Shown in pieces: positions 58-60,527 of a stretch of DNA of 64,000 nucleotides. The notes beneath the pieces were generated by a model that searched no databases, was not told where the DNA came from, and was given only the letters and a program-made list of their open reading frames with translations. The position numbers and the translations under genes were made by a program. Origin of the DNA: Azorinus chamasolen. Lineage: Eukaryota; Mollusca; Bivalvia; Cardiida; Solecurtidae. The DNA lies in the NCBI GenBank assembly GCA_963576725.1, contig OY755246.1, forward strand, positions 72,719,467 to 72,783,466, written 5' to 3'. Each line of letters starts with the position of its first letter. Positions within the stretch are counted from its first letter, which is position 1.

Positions 58-258
58 ATTAATTATCTAAAGATAAGACCCCCACCCCCACAATTGTTTG
101 CCGTTTTTAGCTCACCTGAGCCAAAGGCTCAAGGTGAGCTATTGTGACTTCCTGTCGTCCGTCTGTACGTCTGTCCGTCTGTCTGTCCGTTCACTTTTAT
201 TTAACTTCTTCTCCTAAACCACTGGGAGGATTTCAACCAAATTTCACAGAAATGTACT

Positions 259-2287
259 GTAATGAATGAATGAAAGACTTTATTTAACGAGGGTAGCTCA
301 ATTAGTCATAATGACTAATCTACCTTGAGGCCCTCAAAACGAGCATTTCATACAAAATACAAAACAGTAAAACACAGATCTATAATTATACACAAGAAAT
401 CAATGTTCAGAAATTCAGTAATGTTGCGTCTGGATAATTAATAAATGTTGTCTGCTTCAATTTGTAGATTTTTTCTTTATGGACACGCATTTGGATCCTG
501 ATAAAACTCCGAGTAACATGGCGTATAATCTGGATCCAATCTGTTATCATAGATTTGATTTGCCACTAGCATCAAGATAGTTAATATAAAGCTATAATAT
601 ATAAAGTGTTGCACATAAAAAATGAAATGCATAAATGACATCTGACGCCGATTCAGGTGGATGAATGCACGCGCTATTAAAATCACATATTTGTGACGTC
701 ATTTACCCACGCTGTCATTATTATAAATACGAGAAAATATTTGTGCTCAGTACTAGTTAAACTAAAATGACCTCTGCTTCAAATTTTGAAAAAATCAGTT
801 ATGTGTAAACTAATTGAACCTGATGAGACTTTGAGTTATTCAACGTCTCGTCTGGATCGAAACTGTTTGCAGATTTGTGTAAGAAACAGTGACATGAATA
901 TTAATTAGATGTCTTGATAAGGACATATGAACATAGGACATTTTGGTTCAGGCAGAAAATGCAGAATCAGATCTATATTATACCATATGATAAGCAACAG
1001 AACAGACCTTGAACAGATGGCTCCTGTAGGAGCTTTCTGATCTGGGTATGCTCTGTTTGCAAGCATGAAAGAATGAATGGGATCGAAACTGTATGCAGAA
1101 GGTTTATGACGGATTGAATGAATGGATGAAGGGCTTTCTGAGTAACTCAATCAAAATGAATGAATGAATAAAATACCGTAATCAATAAGGGTAGCTCTGA
1201 ATCGGTACATTTCATACATTTATGAGCAAAAATATCAATCACGGAACATATTATTAAACAATGTGTCAAGTACAGTAGTTACGCTATTAAACCAGTTCAA
1301 TAATGCAAAATGAAATCAGCATAATTATACAAACTACAGCAACAGATAGAACTGAACCAAGCCAGAAACCTCATTGGAAAGTTTCCTAATTGGATCCGTT
1401 CCATTTGCGCCCTGTGCCTATATACATGTACATTTATACTTTTGTTTTGATGATGTAATTATCATTAATAGTAATCAAAGGTTGTGCTATTAACATGTTA
1501 ACTTTGAAAAAAAAGTAAGTTTCATTGATGCAAAAGATTAAAAATATCAAACCATGTACCCTATGTATATTTCTTCAGGCATAGAATTAGGCAGAGAAAT
1601 AAATTTAGTAAATAATATAATGTGATTATTGTGTGGCATTGAACTGGTTTAAAAATTGCTTTAAAAACAATAACAACAGTATCTAGCATATGCAAATAAA
1701 ATCAAAAACAACCTCCTACATACATCCTCTAGATTTAGACAAGAAACTTGAACAGCGTCTACTATGAATGAACATTGAATGAAATGAACGACATTATAAC
1801 AAAGGTAATTGATCTTCATTGAGTCCCTCTAGTAAAACAATCTCATACAAAGTACCAAACATTAAACAAAGTAACAATTCAGTTACAATGTGCGAAAGCG
1901 CTCTTCCGCCCCAGACAAATAATAAGAGACTCGGGCAATGAGGATTATGTTTACAATAAAGGGCCAGATCAGACACTAAAACCCTTAGTGTCTGATCCAG
2001 TCCCACACTGCAAATTTATGGGTGAAAGAAAAACGCTTTCGTTATTGCATACAAAATATTTATGTAACGATTTTAAAACACTTGGCATAAGAAAACCCTG
2101 TGACTTTCAGCTTGCAGAGAATGTGTCTTGTGCTTATTTTTGTCGGCTGCCAAAGTTTAGTAAAGTTACGAAAAGAGATTCTTAGTGTAATATCATTGTC
2201 ACACATTGTCACACAATTAGGATCCTAATTACATATGATCTATTATTTCCGATATTGCAGACATAATATATATATATATTTATATTA
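259..2287 (-). mobile_element. insert made of retroelement 3' tails
   Basis: This sequence interrupts the HINE that begins at 104. At about 263-345, 1152-1225 and 1764-1850 there are three related blocks. On the minus strand each reads as a short unit with GAGGGCCT/TACCCT-like text and AATAAAGT, ending in (TTCA)n. That is the usual look of a non-LTR retroelement or SINE 3' end with a microsatellite tail. No coding sequence is recognisable. A hairpin unit of the GCAAACAGAGCAGACC type lies at 993-1064 and a second palindrome family near 798-870. Confidence 0.4.
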
Positions 2288-2363
2288 GGGTGTCCTCTAT
2301 CAGATTTGTTCAAATCATGACCCCGGGCAAAAAATGGCCCCGCCCCACTACTTTTAAAGGTTT

Positions 2364-5300
2364 TTTTATACGCCCACCTAATAAAGGTGGTCGTATATTG
2401 TCGTGGCCCTGTCCGTCCGTCCGTTCGTTCGTTCGTTCGTTCGTTCGTTCGTACGTTCGTCCGTCAACATTTTGTTTGTCCGCTGTTTTCTGGGAAAACT
2501 ATTAGAGAGATATTAATAAAACTTCACACAAATGTTTAATGCATCAAGATCTAAAGCTGAGTTGATTCTGAAGTTCATTTGATTTTTCATTTCAGAGTTA
2601 TGGCCCTTTTTTTTAAAAAAATGCAAATAGTTTGTCCGCTGTTTTCTGGGAAAACTATTTGAGAGATATTAATGAAACTTCACACAAATGTTTAATGCAT
2701 CAAGATCTGAAGCTGAGTCGGTTCTGAGGTTCATTTGATTTGTCGTTTCGGAGTTATGGCCCTTTTACTTAAAAACAGTGCAAATACATGCAAATAGTTT
2801 GTCCGCTGTTTTCTGGGAAAACTATTTGACAGATATTAATGAAACTTCACACAAATGTTTAATGCATCAAGATCTGAAGCTGAGTTGATTCTGAGGTTCA
2901 TTTGATTTTTCATGTCAGAGTTGTGGCCCTTGTTTTAAAAAAAATGCAAATAGTTTGTCCGCTGTTTTCTGGGAAAACTATTTAAAAGATATTAATGAAA
3001 CTTCACACAAATGTTTAATGCATCAAGATCTGAAGCTGAGTCGATTCTGAGGTTCATTTGATTTGTCGTTTCGGAGTTATAGCCCTTTTACTTAAAAATA
3101 GTGCAAATATATGCAAATAGTTTGTCCGCTGTTTTCTGGGAGAACTATTTGACAGATATTAATGAAACTTCACACAAATGTTCAATGCATCAAGATCTGA
3201 AGCTGAGTCAGTTCTGAGGTTCATTGGATTTTTCGCTTCAGAGTTATGGCCCTTGTCCTTAAAAAATATGCAAAAAGCTTGTCCGCTGTTTTCTGGAAAC
3301 ACTATTTGAGAGATATTAATGAAACTTCACAAAAATGTTTAATGCATCAAGATCTGAAACCAAATTGATTCTGAGGATCATTTGATTTTTCTTTTCAGAG
3401 TTATGGCCCTTGTCCTTAAAAAATAATGCAAATACATGCAAATAGTTTGTCCGCTGTTTTCTGGGAAAACTATTTGAGAGATATTAATGAAACTTCACAA
3501 AAATGTTTAATGTATCAAGATCTGAAACTGAATTGATTCTGAGGATCATTTGATTTTTCTTTTCAGAGTTATGGCCCTTGTCCTTCAAAAATAATGCAAA
3601 TACATGCAAATAGTTTGTCCGCTGTTTTCTGGGAAAACTATTTGAGAGATATAAATAAAACTTCACAAAAATGTTTAATGCATCAAGATCTGAAGCTGAG
3701 TTGATTCTGAGGTTCATTTGATTTTTCATTTCAGAGTTATGGGCCTTGTCCTAAAAATATGCAAATAGTTTGTCCGCTGTTTTCTGGGAAAACTATTTGA
3801 GAGATATTAATGAAACTTCACAAAAATGTTTAATGCATCAAGATCTGAAGCTGAGTAGATTTTGAGGTTTATTTGATTTGTCGTTTCGGAGTTATGGCCC
3901 TTTTACTTAAAAATTAATGCAAATATATGCATATAGTTTGTCCGCTGATTTCTAAACTGTTTGACAGATATTAATGAAACTTCATACACATGTTTAATGC
4001 ATCAAGACCTGAAGCTAAGTCGATTCTGAGGATCATTTGATTTGTTGTTTCGGAGTTATGGCCCTTGCACTTAAAAATTAATGCAAATCTATGCAAATAT
4101 GAGGATGGCCATAACTTTTCATTTGAAATGATATTTACTTCAATTTTTTAGCTCACCAGAGCACAAAGTGCTCAGGGTGAGCTTTTGTGATCGCCCGTCG
4201 GCGTGCGTCGTGCGTCGTTCGTCGTCCGTCGTTCGTCGTCCGTCGTCAACAATTTGAACCTTTAAAAATCTTCTCCTCTGAATCTACAGGGATCTCAACT
4301 TTCATCTTTGGCACATAGCATCATATTCAGGTCCTCTACAAAAGTTATATAAATTATGCCCCTGGGGTCAAAATTGACCCCGCCCCAGGGGTGCCTTGTT
4401 TTCAATAGAAATATATAGTAAAACTTTGAAAATCTTCTTCTCTGAAGCCAGAAGCTTCTCAGCTTTCATAATTGGCACATAGCATCATGTTCAGGTCCTC
4501 TACAAAAGTTATATAAATTATGTCCCTGGGGTCAAAATTGGCCCGCCCCAGGGGTGGGCCGTTTTCCATAGAATCATATATTGCAAACTTTGAAAATCTT
4601 CTTCTCTGAAACTGGAAGGCTCTCAGCTTTCATATTTGGCACATAGCATCATGTTCAGGTCCTCTACAAAAATTATATAAAGTATGGCCCCGGGGTCAAA
4701 GTTAGCCCCGCCCCAGGGGTGGGCAGTTTTCAATAGAAACAAATAGTGAAATCTTTGTAAATCTTCTTCTCTGAAACTGGAAGCTAGGCTCTCAGCTTTC
4801 ATATTTGGCACAGCGCATTATGTTCAGGTCCTCTACAAAAGTTATGTAAATTATGGCCCCAGGGTCAAAATTGGCCCCGCCCCAGGGGTGGGTAGTTTTC
4901 AATAGAAACAAATAGTGAAATCCTTGAAAATCTTTTCCTCTGAAACTGGAAGGCTCTCAGCTTTCATATTTGGCACAGCGCATCATGTTCAGGTCCTCTA
5001 CAAAAGTTATATAAATTATAACCCTGGGGTCAAAATTGGCCCTGCCACAGGGGTAGTAGGCAATTTTCAATAGAAACATATTGAGAAAACTTTGAAAATC
5101 TTCTTCTCTGAAACTGGAAGGTTAATCTCAGCTTTCATATTTGGCTCATAGCATCATGTTCAGGTCCCCTACAAGTTTTTCTAAATTATTCCCTGGGGTC
5201 AAAATTGGCCCGCCCCAGGGCCGGCTAGTTCTCTATAGAAACATATAGTGAAAACTTTGAAAATCTTCTCCTCTGATTGTCTGGTGAGCGCTTCAGGGCC

Positions 5301-5454
5301 ATTCTGGCCCTCTTGTTTTAAAAAATAGTATCACCTTAATATGGAAATCAAGATCTGAAGCACAGATTAGAAAATGTCAACACTTATGAGGCATGTTGAA
5401 TCAGAGAACATTTGCAAGTGGGCGTATTATGTACCGTATGCGGTACTCTTGTTT
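2364..5454 (+). repeat. ATACGCCCACC-type HINE, copy 1
   Basis: The 5' end has a T-run, ATACGCCCACCT, a loop and GGTGGTCGTAT, then a (GTTC)n tract at about 2413-2460. The core has about ten tandem units of roughly 158-169 bp, each containing TTTGTCCGCTGTTTTCTGGG. The 3' end carries the inverse motif GTGGGCGTAT, then a GTACCG..CGGTAC hairpin and CTCTTGTTT. The core is interrupted at 4147-5316 by an AGCTCACC element. The 3' flank after the interruption is nearly identical to that of copy 2 at 26184-26344. Confidence 0.85.
4147..5316 (+). repeat. AGCTCACC-type HINE nested in copy 1 of the ATACGCCCACC HINE
   Basis: Complete element. It has TTTTAGCTCACC, the GAGCACAAAGTGCTC stem, a GTCGTCCGTC tract, tandem core units (CTCAGCTTTCATATTTGGCA, GGTCAAAATTGGCCCCGCCC), then TCTGGTGAGCG, the GGGCCATTCTGGCCC hairpin and TCTTGTTT. 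It sits in a T-run of the host element and the host sequence continues on the far side. Confidence 0.85.
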
Positions 5455-5760
5455 AAATCTTTAAAAATCTTCTTCTCTGAAACCACAATATCTAGAGCTT
5501 TGGTATTTGGTATATAGCATCATCTAATGGTCCTTTACCAGGTTTGTTTAAATGATGACCCCCGGGCCCAAAAATAGCCCTGCCCTGGGGCTTGTATTTT
5601 TTACATAGACTTATATAGGGAAACCTTTAAAAATCTCCTTGTCTGAAACCACATAATCTAAAGCTAAGATATTTGGTATGAAGCATCACCTAATATACCA
5701 CTACCAAGTTTGTTCAAATAATGACCCCTGGGCCAAAAATGGTCTCACCCTGGGGCTTTA

Positions 5761-7499: not shown

Positions 7500-9701
7500 A
7501 GTTTGAGCAACTTACTCCGCGACATGCTCCGCACCCAACTGAACACTCTTAACCGTGTTTCCTGCAGCAGGAGCATCGCTTACTGTCACATTCTGATTTA
7601 CAGTTGCAACGAATAACCGTAAGCAGATTTTCAGGAGCTGGGGGAAGCGTGGTTTTTACAGGCAGATATATGTTGTCGACTAACTCCCATCCCCATTCTT
7701 CTGGTTTCAACATTGAGTTTCTTGTCCAGATACTAGTTTGGTAAAATACCCGGAGACTGTGAAATGCTGTAGCAGCTGATGTTCGGGGCAGAGTATGGAC
7801 TTGTACAAATGTTCTTTTTGTTATAACCTGTGTTGCAAACTTGTAGAATCTCAGTGTATCTAGATTGTCGCTTAAACCACCATTCATCAGCAGGCAAACC
7901 GCAATTTCTCAAGTAATAATATTTTCCCTTGATGTCCAAGCCATGAAACGTTTTGCAACTTCTTGAAGACTTTTCCTGAGTATGCGTAGTGCCGCAGACT
8001 TGCCTACACCATATATCATTGAAGTTGTGTCACATCCTGATATGGCATGCACGAATGACAGGACTTCGCATATTTGCCTTGTTAATGTTGATTGGTTTTT
8101 TTAGATGTCCCAGATTTTGTCAAACTTAATTGTGGCCAAACGATTTTATAAAAAAAAAGTCAAAGTGCCCTAGGTTGAGCCTTTCTGCACATAGCATTCC
8201 TTCAATCTGGGAAATGTCCTTAAAGTACATGTCATTAGGTGACCTATATTCAGGTGGATTGGCGTATTTTATATCAATCTCATCTTTTGCAGCAAGATCA
8301 TCAACATATACGCCATTCCTAGGCATCGAACGACTTACATTGAAGCCTGGTGTAAACAGAACAGGCGATGATTCCTATTCCATGAAATGTGTTATGGCCA
8401 TCTGGTGTTATGGTCAGCATTATCTGCAACAAACTGCAGAAACTTACCAGGAAAGAACCCCGGTATACTTGTCTGGAGAGCATGCGCTGCATTGGCCTCA
8501 AACTTCAGAATTTCAAAATATGAAGCTGTAAACCCAAGACTGCTCAGTAGGTCTATCAAAAACCTTGACCCAAATTGGTGATGAAGTTGAACGCCTAACC
8601 CTATTTGCAGAGGGGCTATAACAGCTTTTGGTCTACATGCTTGAACTGTGGCTAGCCCGATTGAAGATTGTTTAATATATGTTTCCTTACCACTAAAACA
8701 TGTTGCAAGAAGCAACTGCAAAACTTCAAGGAGGAATTGCATGTTTTTGGCTGCTGACGCAACATCAGTAAAAGCAGGATAAAATGTTCTATCTGTTTGC
8801 ATCATAGCACTGTCGTTTTTGATCAGTTTGCCTGCTGCTTTGAATATGTTTAGCTCCTGTGAAACGTTACAGCTGCTTTTTGCAAAGTTCTGTATAATTA
8901 CAGATGCAGTTTGTTTCAAAGTTACTTGGTCTTCCTTTCCCATTACAGTACTTATTGAAATCATGTCACCAAACTGGTATAATAGTTTCTGTTTCAGGTA
9001 TTTAGTACTAAAAGCTCTTTCACCACATTTATCTTTCATTATTTTAGCAAGTTCATTCATTGATATAACAGTCCCAGCAGTGTCTTCCAAGAAACCAATG
9101 ACACACTTAAATGCTTCTGATGTATCAACATTGTCTGGCCTACCTGAACATTTCTTCTTTGTAACCATGTCACCATCCATAAAACATTTTGGAACGGACC
9201 TGTTTGTTCTAATATTTACACAACAAGCTTGGTGATAGACAGATTCAGAAGCAGGTAAATCAATGACTGAAGACAGACTGCTAAGAACTTTTTCAGCCCA
9301 GTAATCTTTCTTCTCTGCACATTTCTCTTTAATGTTCTTTTCGAAGTCTAATGTACGAACAGAATACACCTCGGGACCTCTTTCCCGGTTAGACAATTTA
9401 GCAGTTTTACCACAAAACACACAATTATTCTTAAAATCAAAACATGCATCGTTACATCTTGTAGAGGGTAAACTTGTAGGTGTTTCATTGTCTACACCTG
9501 AATTATTATGCCTGGGTGAATGGTATCTCTTCTACACTTGGTGTGGATCGCTTGCCCTGTCAAAACCTGGACGACATGTCTTATACTGCATGCTTGTTTA
9601 ATTCCTTTATCTGTCAGTCTTACGTACGGTGAGTCACCAGTCAATGGCTTTTCGCATATTGGACAGTCTTCCATCTGAAATAAAAGCCTTTGCTGATGCA
9701 C
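7500..9701 (-). pseudogene. broken multicopy cysteine-rich gene with GCDTTS motif
   Basis: Reading leftwards from 9701, a splice-acceptor-like TTTATTTCAG precedes a methionine and CPICEKPL. A C-x2-C segment (CVFCGK) and a 342-codon open stretch (9420-8392) follow, ending at FVADNADHN. A frame change then gives DGHNTFHGIGIIA, and a second gives the stretch down to 8126. Near 7990-8055 lies HAISGCDTTSMIYGVGKS. The C-terminus is cysteine rich (CNCKSECDSKRCSCC) and continues past an in-frame stop into GCGACRG. At least three frameshifts and one stop make it a pseudogene. I know this architecture as an uncharacterised protein repeated many times in molluscs, corals and fishes. The GCD..GVGK segment resembles the helix-two-turn-helix of FEN1/XPG nucleases, but that is my inference. 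It lies antisense, in or just upstream of the M1AP exons. Confidence 0.7.
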
Positions 9702-12240: not shown

Positions 12241-12283
12241 GTAACTCAGGTGAGCGATATAGGGCCAATGGCCCTCTTGTATT
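12241..12283 (+). repeat. solo 3' end of an AGCTCACC-type HINE
   Basis: CAGGTGAGCG is followed by an AGGGCCAATGGCCC hairpin and TCTTGT. No matching 5' end is found upstream, so this is a 5'-truncated copy. Confidence 0.6.
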
Positions 12284-13551: not shown

Positions 13552-13715
13552 ATGGTTCTTTTGTGTCTAGAAAGAAATATATGTGGAAGATAGAGTAATC
13601 TAGAGTAATCTATTAATGCATTACATCAGTTTGTTAATGTATTTCATAGTTTATAGTTAATTGTTGCTTCTGATTGCATATGGCTAAAAACATGTTTGCC
13701 TTGGTCTGCTCTCAG

Positions 13716-13952: not shown

Positions 13953-13979
13953 GTTAATATCACATTATTATATATCTAA

Positions 13980-45978: not shown

Positions 45979-48900
45979 ATTTTTAGCTCACCAGAGCACA
46001 AAGTGCTCAAGGTGAGCTTTTGTGATACCCCTGTGTCCGGCGTCCGTCTGTCCGTCAACAATTTCAAACGACTTCTTCTTTGAAACCGACTGCCCAATTG
46101 TAACCAAACTTGGTCAGATACATACTGTTGGTGGGTGCTTCAAAAGTTGTTAAAAGATAGTGGGTGGGGCCATCGGTCTTGTTGCCATGGCAACCGTACA
46201 CAATATCTAGAAAAATCTTCTTCTCCAGAATGACTTGTCCGATTTGAATATAGTTTTCACCAAAATGTTTCTCAGTTGATAGACTTCAAAAGTTGTTAAA
46301 AGAATTTTGATCTGGCAAAAAACATGGCCGCCAGAGGGCGTGGTCATTTTTTCCGTATATGGTAATATGGAATTTTCATAGGAAAATCTTTAAAAATCTT
46401 CTTCTCTGAAACTATAAAGCCTAGACCTTTGATATTTGGTATGTAGCATGATCTTATGGTCCTCTACAAAAATTGTTCAAATTATGGCCCCCGGGCCAAA
46501 AATGGCCCCGCCCAAGGGCTTATCAGTTTTTCATAGGAAAATCTTTAAAAATCTTCTTCTCTGAAACTGTAAGGCCTAGACCTTTGATATTTGGTATGTA
46601 GCATGATCTTATGGTCCTCTACAAATATTGTTCAAATTATGACCCCCGGGCCAAAAATGGCCCCGCCCAAGGGCTTGTCAGTTTTTCATAGGAAAATCTT
46701 TAAAAATCTTCTTCTCTGTAACTGTAAGGCCTAGACCTTTGATATTTTGTATATAGCATGATCTTATGGTCCTCTACAAATATTGTTCAAATTATGACCC
46801 CCGGGCCAAAAATGGCCCCGCCCAAGGGCTTATCAGTTTTTCATAGGAAAATCTTTAAAAATCTTCTGTTCTCAAACTGTAAGGCCTACACCTTTGATAT
46901 TTGGTATGTAGCATGATCTTATAGTCCTCAACAAAAGTGGTTCAAATTATGACCCCCGGGCCTCAAATGGCCCCGCCCAAGGGCTTATCAGTTTTTCATA
47001 GGAAAATCTTTAAAAATCTTCTGTTCTCAAACTGTAAAGCCTAGACCTTTGATATTTGGCATGTAGCATGATCTTATGGTCCTCTATAAATATTGTTCAA
47101 ATTATGACCCCAGGGCCAAAAATGGCCCCGCCCAAGGGCTTATCAGTTTCTCATAGGAAAATCTTTAAAAATCATCTTCTCTGAAGCTGTAAGGCCTAGA
47201 CCTTTGATATTTAATATGTAGCATGATCTTATGGTCCTCTACAATTGTTGTTCAAATTATGACCCCCGGGCCAAAAATGGCCCGCCCAAGGGCTTATCAG
47301 TTTTCTATAGGAAAATCTTTAAAAATCTTCTGAAACTGTAAGGCCTAGACCTTTGATATTTGGTATATGTAGCATGATCTTATGGTCCTCTACAAGTATT
47401 GTTCAAATTATGACCCCCGGGCCAAAAATGCCCCGCCCAAGGGCTTATCAGTTTTTCATTGGAAAATCTTTAAAAATCTACTGAAACTGTAAGGCCTAGA
47501 CCATTGATATTTGGTATGACTAACATGATCTAATGGTCCTCTATAAATAAGTAGCTGTGGCTTGTGGTCCTCTGCCAAGAATGTTTGACTTGCGACCCTG
47601 ACCACTGGGCGAAACTTGGCCCTGCCTCAGGGCTTATCAGTTTTTAGCTCACCAGAGCACTTTGTGCTCAGGGTGAGCTTTTGTGATCACCCGTTGTCCG
47701 TCGTGCGTTGTGCGTCGTGTGTCGTGCGTCGTCCGTCGTTCGTCGTCCGTCGTCAACAATTTGAACCTTTAAAAATATTCTCCTCTGAATCTACAGGGTT
47801 CTCATCTTTCATCTTTGGTACATAGTATCATCTTTAGGTCCTCTACAAAAGTCATATAAATTATGCCCCTGGGGTCAAAATTGGCCCCGCCCCAGGGGTG
47901 CCTTGTTTTCAGTAGAAACATATAGTAAAACTTTGAAAATCTTCTCCTCTGAAACCAGAAGGTTCTCAGCTTTCATATTTGGCACATAGCATCATGTTCA
48001 GGTCCTCTACAAAAGTTATATAAATTATGGCCCTGGGGTCAAAATTGGCCCCGCCCCAGGGGTGGGCAATTTTAAATAGAAACAAATAGTGAAATCTTTG
48101 AAAATCTTCTTCTCTGAAACTGCAAGTCTCTCAGCTTTCATATTTGGCATAGAGCATCATGTTCAGGTCCTCTACAAAAGTTATATAAATTATGGCCCTG
48201 GGGTCAAAATTGGCCCCACCCCCGGGGTGCCTTGTTTTCAATAGAAACATATAGTAAAACTTTGAAAATCTTCTCCTCTGAAACCAGAAGGTTCTCAGCT
48301 TTCATATTTGGCACAGAACATCATGTTCAGGTCCTCTACAAAAGTTATATAAATTATGGCCCTGGGGTCAAAATTGGCCCCGCCCCAGGGGTGGGCAGTT
48401 TTCAATAGAAACAAATAGTGAAATCTTTGAAAATCTTCTTCTCTGAAACTAGAAGTCTCTCAGCTTTCATATTTGGCACAGAGCATCATGTTCAGGTCCT
48501 CTACAAAAGTTATATAAATTATGGCCCTTGGGTCAAAATTGACCCCGCCCCAGGGGTGGGCAGTTTTCAATAGAAACAAATAGTGAAAACTTTGAAAATC
48601 TTCTTCTCTGAAACTGGAAGGCTCTCAGCTTTCATATTTGACACATAGCATCATGTTCAGGTCCTCTACAAAAGTTATATAAATTATGGCCCCAAGGTCA
48701 AAATTGGCCCCGCCCCAGGGGTGGGCAGTGTTAAATAGAAACAAATAGTGAAATCTTTGAAAATCTTCTTCTCTGAAACTGGATGGCTCTCAGCTTTCAT
48801 ATTTGGCACAGAGCATCATGTTCAGGTCCTCTACAAAATTTATATAAATTATGGCCCTGTGGTCATAATTGGCCCCACCCCAGGGGTGGGCAGTTTTTAT

Positions 48901-49628
48901 TAGAAATAAATGCATGTAGGGAAAACTTTGAAAACCTTCTCCTCTGAAACTTGAAGGTTTTCAGCTTTCATATTTACCACATAGCATCATGTCCAGGTCC
49001 TCTACAATATATATATAAAATATGGCCCTAGGGTCAAAATTGGCCCCGCCCCAGGGTCAAAATTGGCCCCGCTCCAGGGGTGGGCAGTTTTCAATAGAAA
49101 CAAATAGTGAAATCTTTGAGTATCTTCTTCTCTGAAACTGGAAGGTTCTCAGCTTTCATATTTTGCACATAGCATCATGTTCAGGTCTTCTACAAAAGCT
49201 ATATAAATTATGACCCTTGGGTGAAAATTGGCCCGCCCCAGGGGTAGCCATTTTCAATAGAAACATATAGTGAAAACTTTGAAAATCTTCTCGTCTTAAA
49301 CTGGAAGGTTCTCAGCTTTCATATTTGGCATATAGCATCATGTTCAGGTCCTCTACAAAAGTTATATAAATTGTGCCTCTTGGGTTAAAATGAGCCCCAC
49401 CCCAGGGCAGGCTAGTTTTCTATAGAAACATATAGTGAAAACTTTGAAAATCTTCTCCTCTGACTGTCTGGTGAGCGCTTCAGGGCCATTCTGGCCCTCT
49501 TGTTTATTGTAAAAAAATGAAATATTACTTTTCTCTGAAACCATAAGGCTTAGACCATTAATGAACCCCACCCCCCACCCCCTGGAGTTATCTCAGGTGA
49601 GCGCTTCAGGGCCTCATGGCCCTCTTGT
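45979..49628 (+). repeat. AGCTCACC-type HINE with GACCTTTGATATTTGG core, split by a sister
   Basis: The 5' end and core run 45979-47640 with about nine units (TTTTCATAGGAAAATCTTTA, TAGACCTTTGATATTTGG, GACCCCCGGGCCAAAAATGG). The 3' end is 49504-49628 (TCTCAGGTGAGCGCTTCAGG, GGCCTCATGGCC, CTCTTGTT). A perfect RFX X-box GTTGCCATGGCAAC is at 46181-46194. The gap holds the element 47641-49503. Confidence 0.8.
47641..49503 (+). repeat. AGCTCACC-type HINE nested in a sister element
   Basis: Complete copy: stem-loop, GTCGTGCGTC tract, about eleven TTTGGCACATAGCATCATG units, GGTGAGCGCTTCAGGGCC hairpin end and TCTTGTTT. Inserted in the TCAGTTTTT of the host core. Confidence 0.85.
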
Positions 49629-51887
49629 TAGCTCAAAGGTTCAGGATGAGCTATTGTGATCGCGATCCGTCCAGCGTCCGGCCACATTTTCAAACGACAT
49701 CATCTCTGAAACTGCTGACCTGATTTTAACCAAATTTTGTCAGAAGCATCAGTGGTTAGGGGGAACGAAATGTTGTTCACATTTTGACCCCGGGCTAAAA
49801 ATGGCCCCGCCCAAAGGCTTATCAGTTTTTCATAGGAAAATCTTTAAAAATCTTCTCCTCTGAAACTGTAAAGCCTAGACTTTTGATATTTGGCATGTAG
49901 CATGATCTTATGGTCCTCTACAAAGATTGTTCAAATTATGACCCCCGGGCCAAAAATGACCCCGCCCAAGGGCTTATCAATTTTTCATAGGAAAATCTTT
50001 AAAAATCTTCTTCTCTGAAACGGTAAGGCATAGACCTTTATTTGGTATGTAGCATGATCTAATGGTCCTCTACAAAGATTGTTCAAATTGTGACCCCTGT
50101 GCCAAAAATGGCCCCACCCAATGGCTTATCAGTTTTTCATAGGAAAACTTTTGAAAATGTTCTTTGAAACTGTAAGGCCTAGACCTTTGATATTTGGTAT
50201 GTAGCATGATCTAATAGTCCTCTACAAAGATTGTTCAAATTATGACCCCCGGGCCAAAAATTGTCCCGCCCAAGGGCTTATCAGTTTTTCATAGGAAACT
50301 CTTTAAAAATCTTCTTCTCTGTAACTGTAAGGCCTAGACCATTGATATTTGGTATGTAGTATGATCAAATGGTCCTTTACAAAATTTGTTCAAATTATGA
50401 CCCCCGGGCCAAAAATGGCCCCGCCTACGGGCATATCAGTTTTTCATAGGAAAATCTTTAAAAAGTCTTCTTCTCTGAAACTGTAAGGCATAGACCTTTG
50501 ATATTTGGCATGTAGCATGGTCTATCGGTCTTCTACGAAGATTGTTCAAATTATGACCCTGGACCAAAAATGGCCTCACCAAAGGGCTTATCAGTTTTTC
50601 ATAGGAAAATGTTTAAAAATCTTATCCTCTCAAACTGTAAAGCCTAGACTTTTGATATTTGGCATGTAGCATGATCTTATGGTCCTCTACAAAGATTGTT
50701 CAAATTATTACCCCCGGGCCAAAAATGGCCCCGCCCAAGGGCTTATCAATTTTTCATAGGAAAATCTTTATAAATCTTCTTCTCTGAAACTGTAAGGCAT
50801 AGACCTTTATTTGGTATGTAGCATGATCTAATGGTCCTCTACAAAGATTGTTCAAATTGTGATCCCTGGGCCAAAAATGGCCCCACCCAATGGCTTATCA
50901 GTTTTTCATAGGAAAACTTTTGAAAATCTTCTTCTCTGAAACTGTAAGGCCTAGACCTTTGATATTTGGTATGTAGCATGATCTAATGGTCCTCTACAAA
51001 GATTGTTCAAATTATGACCCCCGGGGCCAAAAATTGCCCCGCCCAAGGGCTTATCAGTTTTTCATAGGAAAATCTTTAAAAATCTTCTTCTCTGAAACTA
51101 AGGCCTAGACCTTTGATATTTGGTATGTAGCATGGTCAAATGGTCCTTTACAAAAATTTGTTCAAATTATGACCCTGGGCCAAAAATGGCCCCGCCTACG
51201 GGCATATCAGTTTTTCATAGGAAAATCTTTAAAAATCTTCTTCTCTGAAACTGTAAGGCCTAGACCTTTGATATTTGGCATGTAGCATGGTCTATTGGTC
51301 CTCTACGAAGATTGTTCAAATTATGACCCTGGACCAAAAATGGCCTCACCAAAGGGCTTATCAGTTTTTCATAGGAAAATGTTTAAAAATCTTCTTCTCT
51401 GAAAATGTAAGGCATAGACCTTTGATATTTGGTATGTAGCATGATGTAATGGTTCTCTACAAAGATTGTTCAAATTATGACCCCGGGCCAAAAATGGCCC
51501 CGCCCAAAGGCTTATCAGTTTTTCATAGGAAACTCTTTAAAAATCTTTTGAAACTGTAAGGCCTTGACCTTTGATGTTTGGTATGTAACATGATCTAATG
51601 GTCCTCTACAAATACATAGCTTTGCTTGTCCTCAGCCAAGAATGTTCAACTTACGACCCTGACCTCTGGGAGAAACTTGGCCCTGCCTTGGGGCTTATCA
51701 GTTTTTCATGGGAAAAATATAAAATATTATTTTTCTCTGAAACCATAAGGCTTAGACCTTTAATGGCATACTGCTTTGCCTTGTGGTTCTCTACCAAGGT
51801 TGTACAAATGCTGACTTCTTGGTCAAAAATGGCCCCGCCCCAGGGGTAATCTCAGGTGAGCGCTTCAGCGCCTCATGGCCCTCTTGT
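49628..51887 (+). repeat. AGCTCA-type HINE directly abutting the previous one
   Basis: Starts TAGCTCAAAGGTTCAGGATG with no spacer after the preceding CTCTTGT. About 13 core units follow, then ATCTCAGGTGAGCGCTTCAG, a GCGCCTCATGGCC-type hairpin and CTCTTGTT. The two elements are head to tail in the same orientation and share core and 3' end types. Confidence 0.8.
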
Positions 51888-51914
51888 TGAGTAATTATCA
51901 TGAAATAAATATAA

Positions 51915-52890
51915 GGGTGTTCCCTTTCATTTATATATGGGACATAGCTTTTGAACCAGTACAGATAGAGACTTGATATGTGGCATGCTTGTGTATCTCA
52001 TGAAGCTGCACAGTTTGAGGGGTGACATATCAAGGTCATCCTTCAGGGTCAAAGGTCACCAACTTCAAATTGGCCATAACTTTTGAACCAATAGAGATAG
52101 AGTCTTGGTATGCATGTGTATCTCAAAGCTGCACATTTTGAGGGGCAACATGTCAAGGTAAAGGTAATCTTTTAGGGTCAAATGTCACCGAGTTTAACAT
52201 TGGCCATGCCTTTTGAACCTGTAGATACAGACTTGACATTTGGTATGCATGTGTATCTCATGAAGCTGCACAGTTTGGGGGTGACATGTCAAGGTCATCT
52301 TTCAGGGTCAAAGGTCACCGACTTTAATATTGGCCATAACTTTTGAACCAGTAGAGATACACACTTAGAATTCGGTATACATGTGTATCTCGTGAAGCTG
52401 CACAGTTTGGGGGTGACATGTCAAGGTCATCTTTCAGGGTCAAAGGTCACTGACTTTAACATTGGCCATAACTTTTGAATCAGTAGAGATACAGCCTTGA
52501 TAGTTGGTATACATGTGTTTCTCATTTGGCTGCACAGTTTGAGGGGTGACATGTCAAGGTCATCTTTGAAGGTCAAAGGTCACCAACATTAACATTGGCC
52601 ATAACGTTAGAACCAGTAGATATACAGCCTTGATACTGGTATGCATGTGTATCTCATGAAGCCGCACAGTTTGAGGGGTGACATGTCAAGGTCATCCGTC
52701 ATGGTCAAGGTCACCAACTTTAACATTGGCCATAACTTTTGAACCAGTAGAGATACAGACTTGATATTTGTTATGCATGTGTACCCCATGAAGCTGCACA
52801 GTTTGAGGGGTGACATGTCAAGATCAAGGTCATCCTTCAGGGTCAAATATCATATCGAGGGGGCATAGTGTTTCACAAACACATCTTGTT
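51915..52890 (+). repeat. GGGGGCATA-type HINE, 5' truncated
   Basis: Eight core units of about 120 bp contain ATTGGCCATAACTTTTGAAC, GTATCTCATGAAGCTGCACA and AGGGTCAAAGGTCACC. The 3' end is CGAGGGGGCATAGTGTTTCA, CAAACACATCTTGTT. The same core is found at 56321-56985 with its 5' end. Confidence 0.75.
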
Positions 52891-53098
52891 AAAAGTTTTA
52901 CTATATGTTACTGTAGAACACAAGGCGTTCCTGGTGTGGGGCCAATATTGACCCCAGGGGCAAAATTTATATAACTAGTGTAGAGGACCTACAGATGATG
53001 CTATGTAACAAAGATGATAGCTGAGAACCCTGTAGATTCAGAGTAGATTTTTAAAGATTCTCAGTGTTGACGATCGACGAAGGATGACGGACATCAGC
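52891..53098 (-). repeat. AGCTCACC-type HINE 5' fragment, reverse orientation
   Basis: The minus strand reads a GTCCGTCATCC tract, then AATCTACAGGGTTCTCAGCT and GGTCAATATTGGCCCC-like core. The stem-loop itself is lost at the right edge. Confidence 0.6.
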
Positions 53099-53500
53099 CA
53101 ATTAAATTGAGACATGATTAAATGTTTATAAATGCATGCCGAAATCAGTTGTCCGAAATACGCGTTATCCAGAATACCGGTAAGCTTGTTTCCTTTCTAG
53201 AGAGTATTCAGCGCTAAAAAGCTGCGCAGAACATATTACCGAAATCGTCTTTAAGTTTTACCCTTGTCCGTACGTACATCCGAAATATTTGTCCAGGATT
53301 TCTTGGCTTGTGTAAGGTGGAATGATTTGATATTTGGTCTGAAGCATTATCACAGTGAGTTGTAACGTGTCTCCCTTTTTCAGGTCTGTCGTCTGTCTAC
53401 TTCCTGTTTGCCAACACTTTGATTTAATTTTGGTGATTGTTTAATGACAAAAATTTTCGTCAAAGATTTCTTCGTTTATGTAAGCTGCAATGATTTGATA
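53099..53500. other. no gene seen
   Basis: Two loosely similar stretches share AATGATTTGATAT and CTTATGTAAGCTGCAATG-like text. Nothing else is recognisable. Confidence 0.4.
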
Positions 53501-53915
53501 TGTTGTCCTGTGTTCACCGTCGTCTATGTTGTGGGTAAGTCCAGCGGGGATACCTTTATTTACAATATTTGTAAAGCTAGGGTGACTTTGAGAGAAGTGT
53601 GAGGTTAGGACGTCCGTAAACCGGTTTAAACTCCCAGTGGTGTTTTTTTTCTACTGACCGTGCCAAGGCGGTACTCTCTTTGTCACCCTTCCTTTTGTTT
53701 GCCTTGCGTCTTTGTGCTTGTGATTTGTTCATGTGTGGAACGTTTGTCCCTGGTTCTTGTGTGTCTTTTGGTGCTTTCTGTGTTCATTTCGTGTGTGTGT
53801 GTGTGCGTTTGGGTGTGAGGTTGTGTGTGTGTGTGTGTGTCATGCTGTCTATCGGTGTTTTGGTGGTGGTTGCGTCTTGCATGTGGCTTTGCCTGCTTGA
53901 CTTTACTACTTTTCC
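53501..53915 (+). repeat. retroelement terminal/UTR block, + strand copy
   Basis: Same block as 40604-41008 in opposite orientation. It includes CCGTAAACCGGTTTAAA and a (GT)n tract at about 53790-53840. The open frame at 53680-54030 runs through it, but its counterpart in the other copy is not conserved as protein, so I do not call a gene. Confidence 0.7.
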
Positions 53916-54029
53916 ATGTATAATCATAGTTAGTTGTACCGGTTCTCCCTTTTTCTGGCTGTCAATCGTCTACTTTCTGTTTGCCGTTGGGGGCATCTGT
54001 GTCCCAGCAACACATTTTCTTTTATTTTA

Positions 54030-55985
54030 AATCGCCATAGCAACCAAATGGTGGGCTCTGATTGGTTGAAGTTTAGATATTGTTTGGCAAAGTTACATAT
54101 TCAATTTTGCTGAAAAAAATATCATGTGATATTTTAGTACTCCAAATCGATTGGTAGGCATTTCAAAAGTATTGGATGACATGGTAACTGAATGGTGACT
54201 TGTTGGTCAAAATCTATATCATTTTCGATGAATTGAGATATTGTTCGATTTTGCTTAAAATTAGTATTTCGGGATATGATGGTACTCAGAATTGATTGAA
54301 AGGTCTTTCGAAAGAATTTGTTGCCATGGTAACTGAATGGTTGAATTTAGGTATTGTTCAATTTTGCTGAAAATTGGTATTTCGGGATATTTTGGCAATC
54401 TGAATTGATTGGTAGGTCTTTCGAAAGAATTGGTTAACATGGTAACTGAATGATTACTCTCATTGGTCAAAATTTAATTCTTTTTCGACGAATTTAGATA
54501 TTGTTCAATTTTGTTGAAACTTGGTATGTCAGGATACTTTGGCAGTCTGAATTGATTGGCCATTGTAAATGAATGGTGGGCTATAATTGGTCGAAATTTA
54601 GATGTTCGAATTTACATTTATTTGGGTTCCCCAAATTGGTTATTAGTGTTAAATGGGTCCCCCTAACTTAATGACAGTTTTTATTATACCCCCCTTTTGA
54701 AAAAATGGGGGTATATTGCTTTGCACATGTCGGTCGGTCGGTAGATCGATGGTTTCCGAATGATAACTAATAAACGACTTGGCATAGGATCTTCAAACTT
54801 CCTGTGGTGGTTGGTCATGACAACTAGATGACCCCTATTGTTTTTTAGGTCAAAGGTCAAGGTCACCATGACCTTAACTTGTTAAATGGTTTCTGATCAA
54901 TAACTGCTGAAAGGTTTGGCTTGGGATCTTCAAACTTGCTGTGGTGGTTGGTCATGACAACTAGATGACCCCTATTGTTTTTGAGGTCACTAGGTCAAAG
55001 GTCAAGGTCACCATGACCTTAACTGGTAAAATGGTTTTTGATCAATAACTGCTCAAGGGTTTGGCTTATGATCTTCAAACTCGCTTAGGTCGTTGATCAT
55101 GACCATTAAATGGCCCCTAATGTTTTTGAGGTCACTAGGTCAAAGGTCAAGGTCATCATGACCTTAACTAGTGAAATGGTTTCCGATCAATAACTGTGCA
55201 AGGGTTTGGCTTAGGATCTTCAAACTTGCTGTGGAGGTTGGTCATGACAACTAGATGACCCCTATTGTTTTTGAGGTCACTAGGTCAAAGGTCAAGGTCA
55301 CCATGACCTTAATTGGTGAAATGGTTTCCAATCAATAACTGCTCAAGGGTTTGGCTTAGGATCTTTAAACTTGCTGTGGTGGTTGGTCATGACCACTAGA
55401 TGGCCTGTATTGTTTTTTAGGTCACTAGGTCAAAGGTCAAGGTCACCATGACCTTAACTGGTGAAATGGTTTCCAATCCATAACTGCTCAAGGGTTTGGC
55501 TTAGGATCTTTAAACTTGCTGTGGTGGTTGGTCATGACAACTAGATGGCCTGTATTGTTTTTGAGGTCACTAGGTCAAAGGTCAAGGTCACCATGACCTT
55601 AACTGATGAAATGGTTTCAGAGTAATAACTGCTCAATGGTTTGGTTCGGATTCTTCAAACTTGCTGTGGTGGTTGGTCGTGACCACTAGATACCCCCTAT
55701 AGTTGTTCAGGTCACTAGGTCAAAGGTCAAGGTCACCAATCCATGACCTTAACTTGTGAAATGTTTTTAGATCAATAAATGATCAGTGGTTTGGCTTAGG
55801 ATCTTCAAAGTTGCCGTGTTGATTAGTCATGACCACCAGATGACCTCTATAGTTGAGGTCACTAGATCAAAGGTCAAAGGGTCTGGGGGTATACATGTTT
55901 CACAAACATCTCTTGTTTTTTAAAGTGTTTGTTGCCATGGTAACCCTTTGATGGCCTGTGATTGGTTGAAATTTAGATACCAGTT
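54030..55985 (+). repeat. tandem repeat with CCATGGTAACTGAATGG, split by a HINE
   Basis: Units of about 120-130 bp contain GAATTGATTGGTAGG, TTCGAAAGAATTGGTT, CCATGGTAACTGAATGG and TTGTTCAATTTTGCTGAAA. They occur at 54030-54680 and a last unit at 55918-55985. GTTGCCATGGTAAC in several units is an RFX X-box-like palindrome. Confidence 0.65.
54681..55917 (+). repeat. TATACCCCCC-type HINE with DR1 and IR3 nuclear-receptor motifs
   Basis: The 5' end is TTATACCCCCCTTTTG, AAAATGGGGGTATATTG, then GTCGGTCGGTCGG. Seven core units of about 145-155 bp contain TTTGGCTTAGGATCTTCAAA and AGGTCAAAGGTCAAGGTCAC followed by CATGACCTTAAC. The 3' end is TGGGGGTATACATGTTTCAC, AAACATCTCTTGTTT. Confidence 0.8.
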
Positions 55986-56182: not shown

Positions 56183-57290
56183 ATGTTTTCCGATTCTTCT
56201 TCTTCAGCTGTGAACTTAAATGCTAATAAAGCTTTCTTTACTGACGAGCAAATGAAATGTTACACCAATTGGACTTGCTCAGAAGTTTGTGAATCACTTA
56301 CCTTTCTTCTGGATAACATATTTTTATCCCCCCCCCCCCCGGATCTGATCTGGGGGCATATTGTTTTTGCCCTGTCTGTTTGTTTGTCAGCAACTTTAAC
56401 ATTGGTCATAACTTTTGAGCCAGTACAGATAGAGACTTGATATTAGACATGCATATGTATCTCATAAAGCCGCACATTTTGGGGGTGACATGTCAAGGTC
56501 ATCCTTCAAGGTCAGAGGTCAAATATATGGGTCAAATCACCGACTTTAACATTGGCCATAAGTTTTGGACCAGTAGAGATAGAGACTTGATATTTGGCAT
56601 GCCTGTGTATCTCATGAAGCTGCACATTTTGGGGTGACATGTCAAGGTCATCCTTCAGGGTCAAAGGTCAAATTGTCTGTTTCTTTGTAACTGTAACATT
56701 GGTCATAACTTTTGAGCCAATACAGATAGAGACTTGATATTTGACATGCATATGTATCTCATAAAGCCGCACATTTTGAGGGATGACATATCAAGGTCAA
56801 GGTCATCCTTAAAGGTCAGAGGTCAAACATATTGGTCAAATCACCGACTTTAACATTGGCCATAACTTTCAAACCAGTACAGATAGAGACTTGATATGTG
56901 GCACGCTTGTGTATCTCATGAAGCTGCACAGTTTGAAGGGTGACATGCCAAGGTCATCCTTCAGGGTCAAAGGTCAAATTGTCTGTTTCTTTGATGCTCT
57001 GATTCCTAGAATTTACCCAAAAGAACTCAAATTGAATAAAGCTAACCCCTCCGACACTTGTGCAGTATTTCTTTATCTAGACCTTAAAATTGACAATGGT
57101 ATGATTTCTTCTAAAATATATGACAAAAGAGATGATTTTGATTTTAATATTGTAAAGTTCCCTCATCTTGACGGAGATGTTCCCCGTGCCCCATCTTACG
57201 GGGTTTATATATCTTAACTTATTCGTTTTGCTAGAGCTTGTTCATCTGTTGACGATTTTAACAATCAAAATCTCATTTATTTATTTTTTT
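56183..57290 (+). pseudogene. fragmented YLDD-type reverse transcriptase, split by a HINE
   Basis: Up to about 56320 the frame reads AFFTDEQMKCYTNWTCSEVC and ESLTFLLDNIF, a segment I associate with the part just before the RT core of this family. A GGGGGCATA-type HINE follows (56321-56985). From about 56986 coding resumes at FDALIPRIYPKELKLNKANP, KIYDKRDDFDFNIVKFPHLD and GDVPRAPSYGVYIS, then a stop and more decayed text (LIRFARACSSVDDFN). The catalytic YxDD part is missing. The resumed part aligns with 41176-41910. Upstream 55985-56183 may be related 5' sequence. The block at 53501-53915 lies about 1 kb upstream once the inserted HINE is discounted. Confidence 0.7.
56321..56985 (+). repeat. 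GGGGGCATA-type HINE, 3' truncated
   Basis: The 5' end is TTTTTATCCCCC followed by GGATCTGATCTGGGGGCATA and a GTCTGTTTGTTTG tract. Four core units follow, shared with 51915-52890. No CTTGTT end is seen before the RT text resumes, so a deletion probably removed it with part of the RT. Confidence 0.7.
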
Positions 57291-57860
57291 GGTGTGTTCA
57301 ATAATTTTATTTTCCCCGTAATAGGTGTATGCAGGTCGGGAAATCATCCTGCTCTACACCTTACACTTTTTGCATAGTATTACACATAATAGTATTCTTT
57401 CGTATAATATTACCAATGCAAGGGTATATGTATTATAATAAAGTAATATATGCCTTAATATCATTGATTGAACAAATTTCCTCTAGAACAGAGAAAGAAC
57501 ATAAAGAACATAAAAAAATGGAAAAAGACATACCTTAATACGGTTAACCGTAAATTTACCGAAATGTAACATGTGGTGAGAAATGTTTGCAAGTTAGATT
57601 GAAGTCGTGGAGTTTCTTTTTATATCTCATGAATTTTCATATATTATGTTGATCAGTTCATATTCATGTTCAAATTACCAACTGTTCCTTTAGTATTTGC
57701 TATGAATCTACTAGTGTCTATCGTAAATTTGAGGTACCTTTTAAATGATATTAGGTTCATATCCTGTTTAAGTAGTCTGGTTCTATATATATATTGCTTA
57801 AGACACATTGCTAGGATGTTAATTTTATCACAGTCTGCCCCGAAGAGGACCGACGTTTAA
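57291..57860. other. retroelement flank, no gene
   Basis: AT-rich sequence between the RT fragment on the + strand and the LINE on the minus strand. It probably includes the LINE 3' untranslated part. No poly-A tail could be assigned. Confidence 0.4.
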
Positions 57861-57879
57861 TTGAAACGTACATTTTTTC

Positions 57880-60527
57880 CTCCTTTCGAAATTATACATG
57901 TTTAATGAAATATTTTGTTTTAAAGCATTTATAAAATATATGAGAGATTATTTCATCGTCGTTATTGCAAAAGCTGCACAAACGAGTATCTTTCAACTTT
58001 AATGTATGTAGATATTTGTTTAATGGTAAAATTCGGTTAAAATCCTTACTTGTAACCATTGCAATGTGGTGTCGCGCGTTATTTTAAACGGTAAGTTGTA
58101 AAATTGTCTCCATTGTTTACCTGTAAACCTATATTGGGCGTCACATTTTAATTTACTTGTGGGTTCATGTGCACTTTTGTTTAGATTATCATAGAAGATT
58201 CTACTTCCAGATCTTGATGTAATGATTGGATCTATCAAATGAGGAATAAATGGTGTGGTTATTTCATTCGTTTGCTGGTCATTTTCAATAAAACTTCGCA
58301 TACTTAGAGTTATAACTCTTGTGATTCCTAAAAAGTGTAGGGGATTAACTTTAATATTGTATAGTGTTTCAAAATCTTGCTGTGATAGTTGCTTGCCTTT
58401 CAAATAAAGATCATTTATAAATCGAACCCCTTTATCAAACCATCTTTTTATAAAGAAACTTTTTCCCCCAATCAGAAGTTTGTGATTGTTAAAGAGAGGA
58501 CATTTCAGCCGTTCTGTGCAATTGCTTACCGTTATTGTCGAAATAAATTGTGAGTATGATGTTAAGACGTCTCTCCAAAACATGTTTTCCGTTTTCTCAG
58601 CTGCTATTTCTGGATAATGTTTCCCACCTGTTATCAATCTATTTCTGTCAATATGGTCTATTAAAGTTGTGCATTAGATGTTATTATTCTACGAATCCAT
58701 GTACATTTTAGACTTTGAATGAAGCATTGTATGTTTACCATTCTTAAACCACCGTTTTCATGATCATTAACAAGTATATCTTTCCGTATTTTTGCGGGTC
58801 CCTGCCAAAGAAATTCGTATAGCAATTTGTTTAACTGATTTATAAATTGTTTACTCGGATTAGGCAAGCTAATGAAAAACTGGGTGAATATTGATAAGAA
58901 CAGGGTTTTAGTCACTGCAAGTTTTCCTATTGGCGTAAGATATCTTCTCTTCCAGAAAGTTATCATATTTTTCACTGAAACTAATTTTTCATCAAAGTTA
59001 CTTTTCACCATTTTGTCAAGATCGATGTTAAAATGGACACTCAATAGTTTGAAGTCATATTTTCCCCAGACTAGTTTGAATTTAGTTTTTATTGAAGCTG
59101 AGCTATATTTTTTGAACCTATCCATATGACATGAGTTTTTTCAAACTTCATGTTTAAACCTGATATATCTGCGAATTTTGTAAGTTCATCTAGCGTCTCA
59201 TCCAGAGACTGTGTTGAACCGTCCAGAATGATTGAGGTATCATCAGCAAATTGTGAAAGAACATGTTCTATTCCATTTATTTTAATACCTTTGATGATTT
59301 TGTTCGAATGAATTTTTTTATTAAGAATTTCTACGCAGATTAGGAAGATGTACGACGATAATGGGTCTCCCTGTCTGCAGCCTCTTTCAAACTTGAAAAA
59401 GTCAGTTAAGTAGCCTACCCGTTTTGGATGACGCTAGATTCAATTCCATTATAAAACACCTTTACCCACTTTTTGAATGAAGCACAAAAGTTAAAAAAGT
59501 CCAGAGTCTTAAATAAGAATCTCCACGATAAGGAATCGAACGCTTTTTATACGCCCGAAGGGACGTATTATGGTATGGCTCATGTCGTCCGTCCGTCCGT
59601 CCGTTAGCAATTTCTTGTGCAACTAACTCCTCCTTTATTTTTCAACATAATTTCTTCAAACTTTCAGGAATGATAGATACTGATGTGTAGTTGTGCATAT
59701 CAGTGAGATAACTCTCATATCATTTTTCATTCTGGAGTTATTGCCCTTTGATAGTTTCGGGTAGCAATTTCTTGTGCAACTAACTCCTCCTTTATTTTTC
59801 AACATAATTTCTTCAAACTTTCAGGAATGATAGATACTGATGTGTAGTTGTGCATATCAGTGAGATAACTCTCATATGATTTTTCATTCTGGAGTTATTG
59901 CCCTTTGATAGTTTCGGGTAGCAATTTCTTGTGCAACTAACTCCTCCTTTATTTTTCAACATAGTTTCTTCAAACTTTCAGGAATGATAGATACTGATGT
60001 GCAGTTGTGCATATCAGTGAGATAACTCTCATATCATTTTTCATTCTGGAGTTATTGCCCTTTGATAGTTTCGGGTAGCAATTTCTTGTGCAACTAACTC
60101 CTCCTTTATTTTTCAACATAATTTCTTCAAACTTTCAGGAATGATGGATACTGATGTGTAGTTGTGCATATCAGTGAGATAACTCTCATATCATTTTTCA
60201 TTCTGGAGTTATTGCCCTTTGATAGTTTCGGGTAGCAATTTCTTGTGCAACTAACTCCTCCTTTATTTTTCAACATAATTTCTTCAAACTTTCAGGAATG
60301 ATAGATATTGATGTGTAGTTGTGCATATCAGTGAGATAACTCTCATATGATTTTTCATTCTGGAGTTATTGCCCTTTGATAGTTTCGGGTAGCAATTTCT
60401 TGTGCAACTAACTCCTCCTTTATTTTTCAACATAATTTTATAGAACAGCCTTCGGGCGTATATTGCCCCGTCTTGCGGTGCTCTTGTTCAAAGTCGATTA
60501 CTGCACATCTCTGGTCCTAACTGCTTG
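57880..60527 (-). pseudogene. L1/Tx1-like LINE reverse transcriptase, broken and split by a HINE
   Basis: Reading leftwards, RCAVIDFE ends at 60490 and continues after the HINE as KAFDSLSWRFLFKTLDFF (from about 59545). Then come FERGCRQGDPLSSYIF, QFADDTSIILDG (the catalytic FADD, about 59230-59265), GLNMKFEKTHVIWIG, the long frames 59125-58661 (WGKYDFKLLSVHFNIDLDKM, KRRYLTPIGKLAVTKTLF, LYEFLWQG, GGLRMVNI) and 58637-58020. Last is KYLHTLKLKDTRLCSFCNND, a zf-RVT-type cysteine motif. At least four frameshifts (near 59430, 59110, 58661, 58023) make it dead. The order RT, thumb, cysteine motif and the motif spelling fit L1/Tx1-type non-LTR elements. The 5' part, including any endonuclease, is absent beyond about 60527. 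Confidence 0.8.
59545..60489 (+). repeat. ATACGCCCGAAGG-type HINE with near-identical 157-bp units
   Basis: The 5' end is TTTTTATACGCCCGAAGG, then GACGTATTATGG and (GTCC)n. Five full units plus a partial sixth start at 59606, 59763, 59920, 60077, 60234 and 60391, exactly 157 bp apart and differing by only a few bases. The 3' end is CTTCGGGCGTATATTG, CCCCGTCTTGCGGTGC, TCTTGTT. It interrupts the LINE between the codons for DFE and KAFDS. Confidence 0.9.

Follow-up and report, generated by a model that had tools for sequence, protein, structure and literature searches.

Why do at least eight repeat families within 64,000 bp of the Azorinus chamasolen genome (C12:72719467-72783466, hereafter the window) share one layout, and why do nearly all of their copies face the same way? 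An earlier sequence-only reading had proposed that these unrelated-looking families are HINEs (non-autonomous Helentrons) and that a single replication machinery had repeatedly captured new cores; the near-uniform facing of the copies was absent from it. Using genome-wide counts from the 1.72-Gb assembly of 137 contigs, we arrive at a joint explanation that we consider probable: the families are HINEs, for one group of them (F1) an element on C2 is the autonomous partner or a close relative of it, and insertion takes place into T-tracts on an exposed strand that is locally fixed.

The layout that had been described is common to the eight families. Its 5′ half consists of a T-run, a 5′ subterminal inverted repeat (subTIR) that forms a stem-loop with its inverse copy, a GTCC-like tract and a tandem core, and its 3′ half of a 3′ subTIR, a hairpin and an end that is mostly CTCTTGT(T). 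All eight family starts that had been named were found on the + strand: AGCTCACC (family F1, nine sites with TTTT and ≤1 mismatch), ATACGCCCACC (F2, at 2368 and 22780), ATACGCCGG (F3, at 35600), ATACGCCCGAAGG (F4, at 59549), TATACCCCCC (F5, at 54685), ATCCCCC (F6, at 56326), ATGCCCCC (F7, at 17750, 17883 and 18824) and ATTATGCCCCC (F8, at 24363). The 5′ subTIR with its inverse copy and the 3′ subTIR were present except in the ATCCCCC copy (56326-56993, +), for which no 3′ end was found within the window; the window HINEs also carry the microsatellite tract and the central tandem repeats. The tail motif CTCTTGTT occurs 16 times on the + strand and once on the − strand, where base composition would predict 1.5 and 1.0 occurrences. 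A palindrome lies directly before 15 of the 16 + sites (read by eye, some stems being mismatched) and is absent at 45731, which bears out the claim that a hairpin usually precedes the 3′ end. The ATGCCCCC family had been singled out for a different end, and it does terminate in TTTTCTAGTT, unlike the CTCTTGT tail of the other families. Genome-wide, the F2 3′ end pattern has 1944+1925 copies. The F1 3′ end pattern had no match in viral_contigs, and its two matches in genome_contigs were rejected because they look like chance in prokaryote DNA.

Three nested insertions have an uninterrupted related copy within the window, all on the + strand: an F1a element (4150-5317, delimited by comparison with the uninterrupted copy) in an F2 element running from ATACGCCCACC to GGGCGTATTATGTACCGTATGCGGTACTCTTGTT with a core of ~155-168 bp (2368-5453); an F8 element running from ATTATGCCCCC to GGGGGCATTTGTCACCCGTGACGACCCTCTTGTT (24363-26184) in the second F2 copy (22780-26345); and an F1a element (47646-49504) in an F1b element (45985-49629, delimited by comparison with a related copy). 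All three sit in T-tracts with no visible target duplication, their ends being uncertain by a few Ts because the related copies used for the comparison are diverged. Across 323 kb, TT precedes 23 of 23 distinct AGCTCACC stem-loops, with the strand defined by the downstream GTC-rich tract; of 34 matched 3′ ends, 30 have a T after them. Canonical Helitrons have 5′-TC ... CTRR-3′ ends and an A-T target, and the window elements depart from this in ending mostly with CTCTTGT and in their T-tract target. Anatomy and T-tract insertion without target duplication agree, and the structural features tested support the identification of the window families as HINEs, that is, non-autonomous rolling-circle elements.

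A complete element of 14,863 bp with a Rep-helicase frame was found at C2:89472967-89487829. It starts after TTTTT; its 5′ side carries the F1d 5′ stem-loop (subTIR and inverse copy), a GTCC-type tract and ~2.6 kb of F1d core repeats, and its 3′ side a 3′ subTIR, a hairpin and a CTCTTGT-type end, the terminal sequence being GGTGAGCGATATAGGGCCATCTGGGCCCTCTTGT. The F1d HINE of the window (42596-43762, +) has a 5′ end, core and 3′ end of the same kind: 53 of 57 aligned positions agree over the first 60 bp and 35 of 45 over the last 45 bp, and the cores are 88% identical over 1004 bp. The 2593-aa open Rep/PIF1 frame has Helitron_like_N, PIF1, DUF6570 and Herpes_teg_N matches over the Pfam cut-offs, and visual inspection assigned SPHIHM as an HUH-like motif and YIVSY as a two-tyrosine one, giving a Rep (HUH, two tyrosines) fused to a PIF1-like helicase. 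Both borders of the element recur elsewhere. Among the best 40 of 7292 candidates scored, three other copies reaching the 3′ region end exactly at C2:89487829; one of them is 98% identical, and the Helitron_like_N match belonging to it, ~4 kb away, falls within an open frame of 344 aa, so that this copy may be broken. At the 5′ border the best 40 of 1809 candidates were scored. In 22 of them, dispersed copies of the flanking repeat, the match runs to position 119 and breaks off just before the element begins at 121, which gives them the look of empty sites; another 17 copies align across the start of the element, 15 with 100% identity along 85-86 bp. These 17 look non-autonomous because none of the PF14214 (Helitron_like_N) matches listed lies within 20 kb of them, coordinates being compared by eye. 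Judged by its ends and frame, the C2 element is the autonomous partner, or a close relative of the partner, for the AGCTCACC chassis, and it is predicted to mobilise the corresponding HINEs.

PF14214 has at least 109 matches in the assembly, and we read ten of these regions, one of which holds the C2 element. Coding elements C and H are followed by 3′ ends of HINE type, whose position led us to treat them as putative separate HINEs. The large contig C7 carries 39 of the 109 listed matches, against 6.2 expected by length (p 3.6e-21). At C16:55582637-55602636 a Helitron frame is flanked by two copies of a 3.3-kb stretch, 100% identical and spaced 16.5 kb from each other, which would reflect either a recent duplication or an assembly duplication.

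The label "unrelated-looking" has limits: the three ATACGCC families have a terminal motif in common and so are not entirely unrelated, and the F1a, F1b and F1c cores proved mutually related in pairwise core comparison. The F6 and F6b cores are likewise related, and those of F2-F4 weakly so. For F1d against F1a no core relationship was detectable pairwise (z 1.8). The idea that all cores are homologous was unsupported for most pairs. An AGGTCA-rich motif recurs in the F5, F6 and F7 cores and, inverted, in F8. These cores have a AGGTCAAAGGTCAAGGTCA-like motif in common, inverted in F8 (24506-25838; 51930-55917), which we take to resemble nuclear-receptor half-sites; reverse-complement core comparison gave z values of 10.9 for F5-F8 and 6.8 for F7-F8. 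Because the termini of F1a and F1d are similar despite their different cores, these comparisons support the exchange of cores between constant ends for the AGCTCACC chassis, much as in the oyster group 2 HINEs (PMC7492417).

Dependence of all eight families on one machinery was not demonstrated: the subTIRs of the other families differ, so eight captures by one proven machine are unsupported. That several unrelated Helentron or Helitron machineries converged on one layout is quite possible, given these subTIR differences and the many Helitron_like_N matches in the genome. Against it, most families have by eye two features in common, the CTCTTGT tail and, downstream of the 5′ inverse copy, a stretch of TATTGT type; the non-AGCTCACC families have the layout and, except for F7, the CTCTTGTT tail in common.

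The copies in the window face one way. Elements in our library account for 27.4 kb of the window on the + strand and 1.0 kb on the − strand, of which 0.4 kb is covered on the − strand alone, and 30 of 33 insertions are on + (p 1.4e-6), as are 22 of the 25 unnested ones. Genome-wide, F1 3′ ends are strand-balanced (9974:10279), and the same pattern read backwards gave zero matches. Strand order was examined along C1, where F1 3′ ends form 28 strand runs against 50.7 expected, as few being seen in 0 of 100,000 shuffles. Same-strand pairs of F1 number 10 of 11 below 5 kb and 18 of 19 at 5-20 kb (28 of 30 below 20 kb), then 41 of 50 at 20-50 kb, and agreement fades further out (50-100 kb, 37 of 62; 100-200 kb, 51 of 95). 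For F2, 13 of 13 pairs below 20 kb are same-strand and runs number 35 against 51 (p 0.0008). Pairs formed between F1 and F2 agree in 11 of 11 cases below 20 kb and in 14 of 17 at 20-50 kb, and this cross-family agreement argues against avoidance of within-family inverted repeats.

As a control we used a MITE-like non-HINE repeat with 9758+9487 copies, a density similar to that of F1; a LINE tail had been rejected for this use as too sparse (330+343 copies). The control repeat showed no coherence, with 14 of 32 same-strand pairs below 20 kb, 55 runs against 51 (p 0.82) and 20 of 48 same-strand pairs with F1, which argues against an assembly or duplication artefact. Non-HINE repeats of the window gave 11 direct and 15 inverted matches. 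Of the self-match counts only this one served as a control, because 186 of the 241 direct HINE-masked self-matches in 11 regions (against 42 inverted) came from regions H and J, which hold arrays and a duplication. Ten 20-kb regions around Helitron frames, spread over nine chromosomes, gave 14 same-strand cases among 16 comparisons of adjacent HINE segments, and HINE orientation agrees with that of the Rep frame in eight of the ten. Neighbours from different HINE families share their orientation across roughly 20-50 kb, in C1:0-10.8 Mb for two families and in the window.

Several observations weigh against the joint explanation. When the window is thinned to one insertion per 5 kb, 8 of 10 remain on + (p 0.11). 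The strand-run tests for F1, F2 and the control use the first 100 places per pattern, all on C1 (F1, C1:0-10.8 Mb; F2, C1:0-43.6 Mb); F1 agreement at 50-100 kb is already low, and for F2 just 5 of the 10 pairs spaced 20-50 kb are co-oriented. In one Helitron region the HINEs lie opposite to the Rep frame, and another is mixed, with four segments opposite and one with it. An autonomous Rep-helicase with the same kind of termini, the check suggested by the sequence-only reading, was found for the AGCTCACC chassis only, and none of the ten Helitron_like_N regions, out of 109, was tied to the ATACGCC, ATGCCCCC or TATACCCC ends. As to the AP-type endonuclease of Helentrons, two C-terminal exo/endonuclease models in the C2 frame (E 2.5e-5 and 9.2e-5) stayed under the Pfam curated cut-offs. 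Among ten intron stretches (50 kb) of apparent ion-channel genes, five of them large and two smaller, nine lacked HINEs; the tenth supplied the only two HINEs that could be scored, both sense to a single apparent gene whose direction is known.

Selection would produce the domains if copies inserted in either orientation and those antisense in transcribed DNA were removed through terminators or splice signals. The domain length of tens of kilobases appears gene-like, the two scorable copies are sense, and AATAAA/ATTAAA is commoner antisense than sense in F2 (10 to 3) and F4 (6 to 0). However, an F1a copy lacks these signals on either strand and F1a2 has one AATAAA per strand, and it is F1 whose coherence is strongest; the same handicap would be needed in all families and in nested copies, and the intron stretches of seven channel genes yielded only those two HINEs. 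We consider selection unlikely, if still a serious candidate.

Somewhat less credible is a replication rule, under which the transferred strand would join the lagging-strand template as in IS200/IS605 elements and orientation would map fork direction. Helentron Reps are, as we understand it, of the HUH class, and HINEs and Rep frame are co-oriented in most of the Helitron regions, but coherence fades by 50-100 kb, which we believe to be short for fork-direction domains. Base skew proved uninformative as a proxy for replication or transcription, being near zero in the HINE-free DNA of the window and inconsistent across regions. In favour of the rule, the orientation of IS608 and ISDra2 recapitulates replication direction (PMC5371812). 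Head-to-tail insertion next to or within existing elements, or segment duplication, would also yield co-orientation, and nested and adjacent copies do exist (49629/49630), but it is improbable given the facing of the unnested window copies, the F1-F2 agreement at 20-50 kb and the lack of coherence in the MITE-like repeat over that part of C1.

Under the joint explanation, Helentron Rep-helicases would copy the HINEs by rolling circle, and the transferred single strand would join T-tracts of the target strand that happens to be exposed as transient single-stranded DNA, that strand being locally fixed by transcription or by fork direction. Of these two, transcription is slightly preferred as the putative strand-setter because the domain length looks gene-sized. 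The general form of this proposal, that Helentrons and HINEs insert with a host-set strand polarity into DNA made single-stranded by transcription or replication, could well be right, and we advance it tentatively.

Many families on one layout, with related flanks and unrelated cores, have already been published for Cg_HINE of the oyster Crassostrea gigas (PMC7492417) and are not new here. Both sets have subTIR, inverse copy, GTCY/GTCC microsatellite, 3′ subTIR, palindrome and T-rich or TT insertion, and central repeats that in Cg_HINE are mostly 140-180 bp and never change direction with respect to the flanks. Of the bivalve elements Pearl, MgE and DTC84 named in PMC7492417, Pearl is described as similar in that its flanks enclose a short array of ~160 bp repeats. 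Our data go further in two respects. In the oyster study ten Repbase autonomous elements could not be related to Cg_HINEs, whereas here an autonomous element matches the HINEs in the type of its ends and core; and Cg_HINEs are described as integrating in both orientations, whereas here orientation is organised in local domains. HINE, DINE-1 and Helentrons of mites, mosquitoes and flies (PMC4067079, in the part available) agree in anatomy, TT target, boundary Ts and Rep/helicase; they differ in their termini and in that the core array here also lies inside the autonomous element, and that account of HINE/DINE-1 holds no orientation domains. The likeness to IS200/IS605 lies in single-strand transposition and an orientation that follows host strand polarity, although those elements are bacterial and their polarity is that of replication (PMC5371812). 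Replication-linked orientation is described there for IS200/IS605 and Tn7 and not for Helitrons, and in the open-access literature on Helitron and rolling-circle orientation bias, as far as its text was available (including PMC5371812 and PMC5738225), no orientation domains for Helitrons were found. The word "helitron" has 0 occurrences in a Mercenaria genome paper (PMC8905726).

The remaining elements of the window, on the + strand unless stated, begin with an F1c-like HINE with a AGCTCACC start (109-5758), interrupted by another transposable element and the first F2 element. An F1-type 3′ end (12241-12280) and the 3′ part of an F1d HINE (12925-13549) follow, then a cluster of F7 pieces (17750-19282) with one 3′ end TTTTCTAGTT near 18541, adjoined by an F1a 5′ part (19283-19803). 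Between the second F2 copy and the F3 HINE (35600-36488) lie a 5′-truncated F1a HINE (28605-29734), an F1a 5′ part (30071-30463), an F1a 3′ part (31718-31880), F7 pieces with two TTTTCTAGTTT ends (31876-32445), an F1c HINE (33180-34675) and an F5-like 5′ stem-loop on the − strand (35072-35103). Beyond F3 are an F1c-like 5′ part (36629-36908) and F1a 5′ (37214-37734) and 3′ (38370-38745) parts. An F1-type 5′ end (44064-44141), an F1a 3′ fragment that is one of three − strand calls (44618-44746) and an F1a HINE (44906-45675) precede the interrupted F1b element, and a second F1b HINE (49630-51888) starts immediately 3′ of another 3′ end. The 3′ part of an F6b HINE (GGGGGCATAGTGTTTCACAAACACATCTTGTT; 51930-52890), an F1a 5′ fragment on the − strand (52889-53092), the F5 HINE (54685-55917) and the F4 HINE (59549-60488) complete the set. 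Two further stem-loop starts with GTCC-type tracts lie on + at 18963-19060 and about 44751-44815 (TATGTGGCT...AGCCACATA; TCTCCCCCATTTATGGGGAGA), and a further HINE-like family, GTGTCACCTGCCGAGAGGCAGTGTGTCAC ... GCAGGTGACACATGTGTTCCTCCGAACACTCTTGTT, occurs at C1:29609646-29612645.

Minus-strand open frames at 7552-9531 (379 aa, 119 aa and shorter) had no Pfam match and possibly represent a broken transposon gene. An RVT_1 (reverse transcriptase) match at 59092-59433 (−) has neighbouring minus-strand frames, and the minus-strand frame at 58023-58673 had no Pfam match. Two + candidate exons with splice-like borders (13702-13953 and 32673-32788) had no Pfam match, the joined pair no PDB match and the first no homologue, so that gene direction in the window is unproven.

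To our knowledge, target choice by Helitron-type transposons is poorly understood. The C2 Helentron is a candidate machinery for the HINEs and would fill a gap in the oyster study. The orientation domains extend across unrelated families and are accompanied by a density-matched control, which makes strand-specific insertion directly testable against gene annotation and replication maps. If the strand polarity proposed here is true, more than 20,000 HINE copies would constitute a written record of strand polarity in domains of about 20-100 kb, and, if the strand is chosen at insertion, HINE orientation would be a fossil record of germ-line strand exposure.

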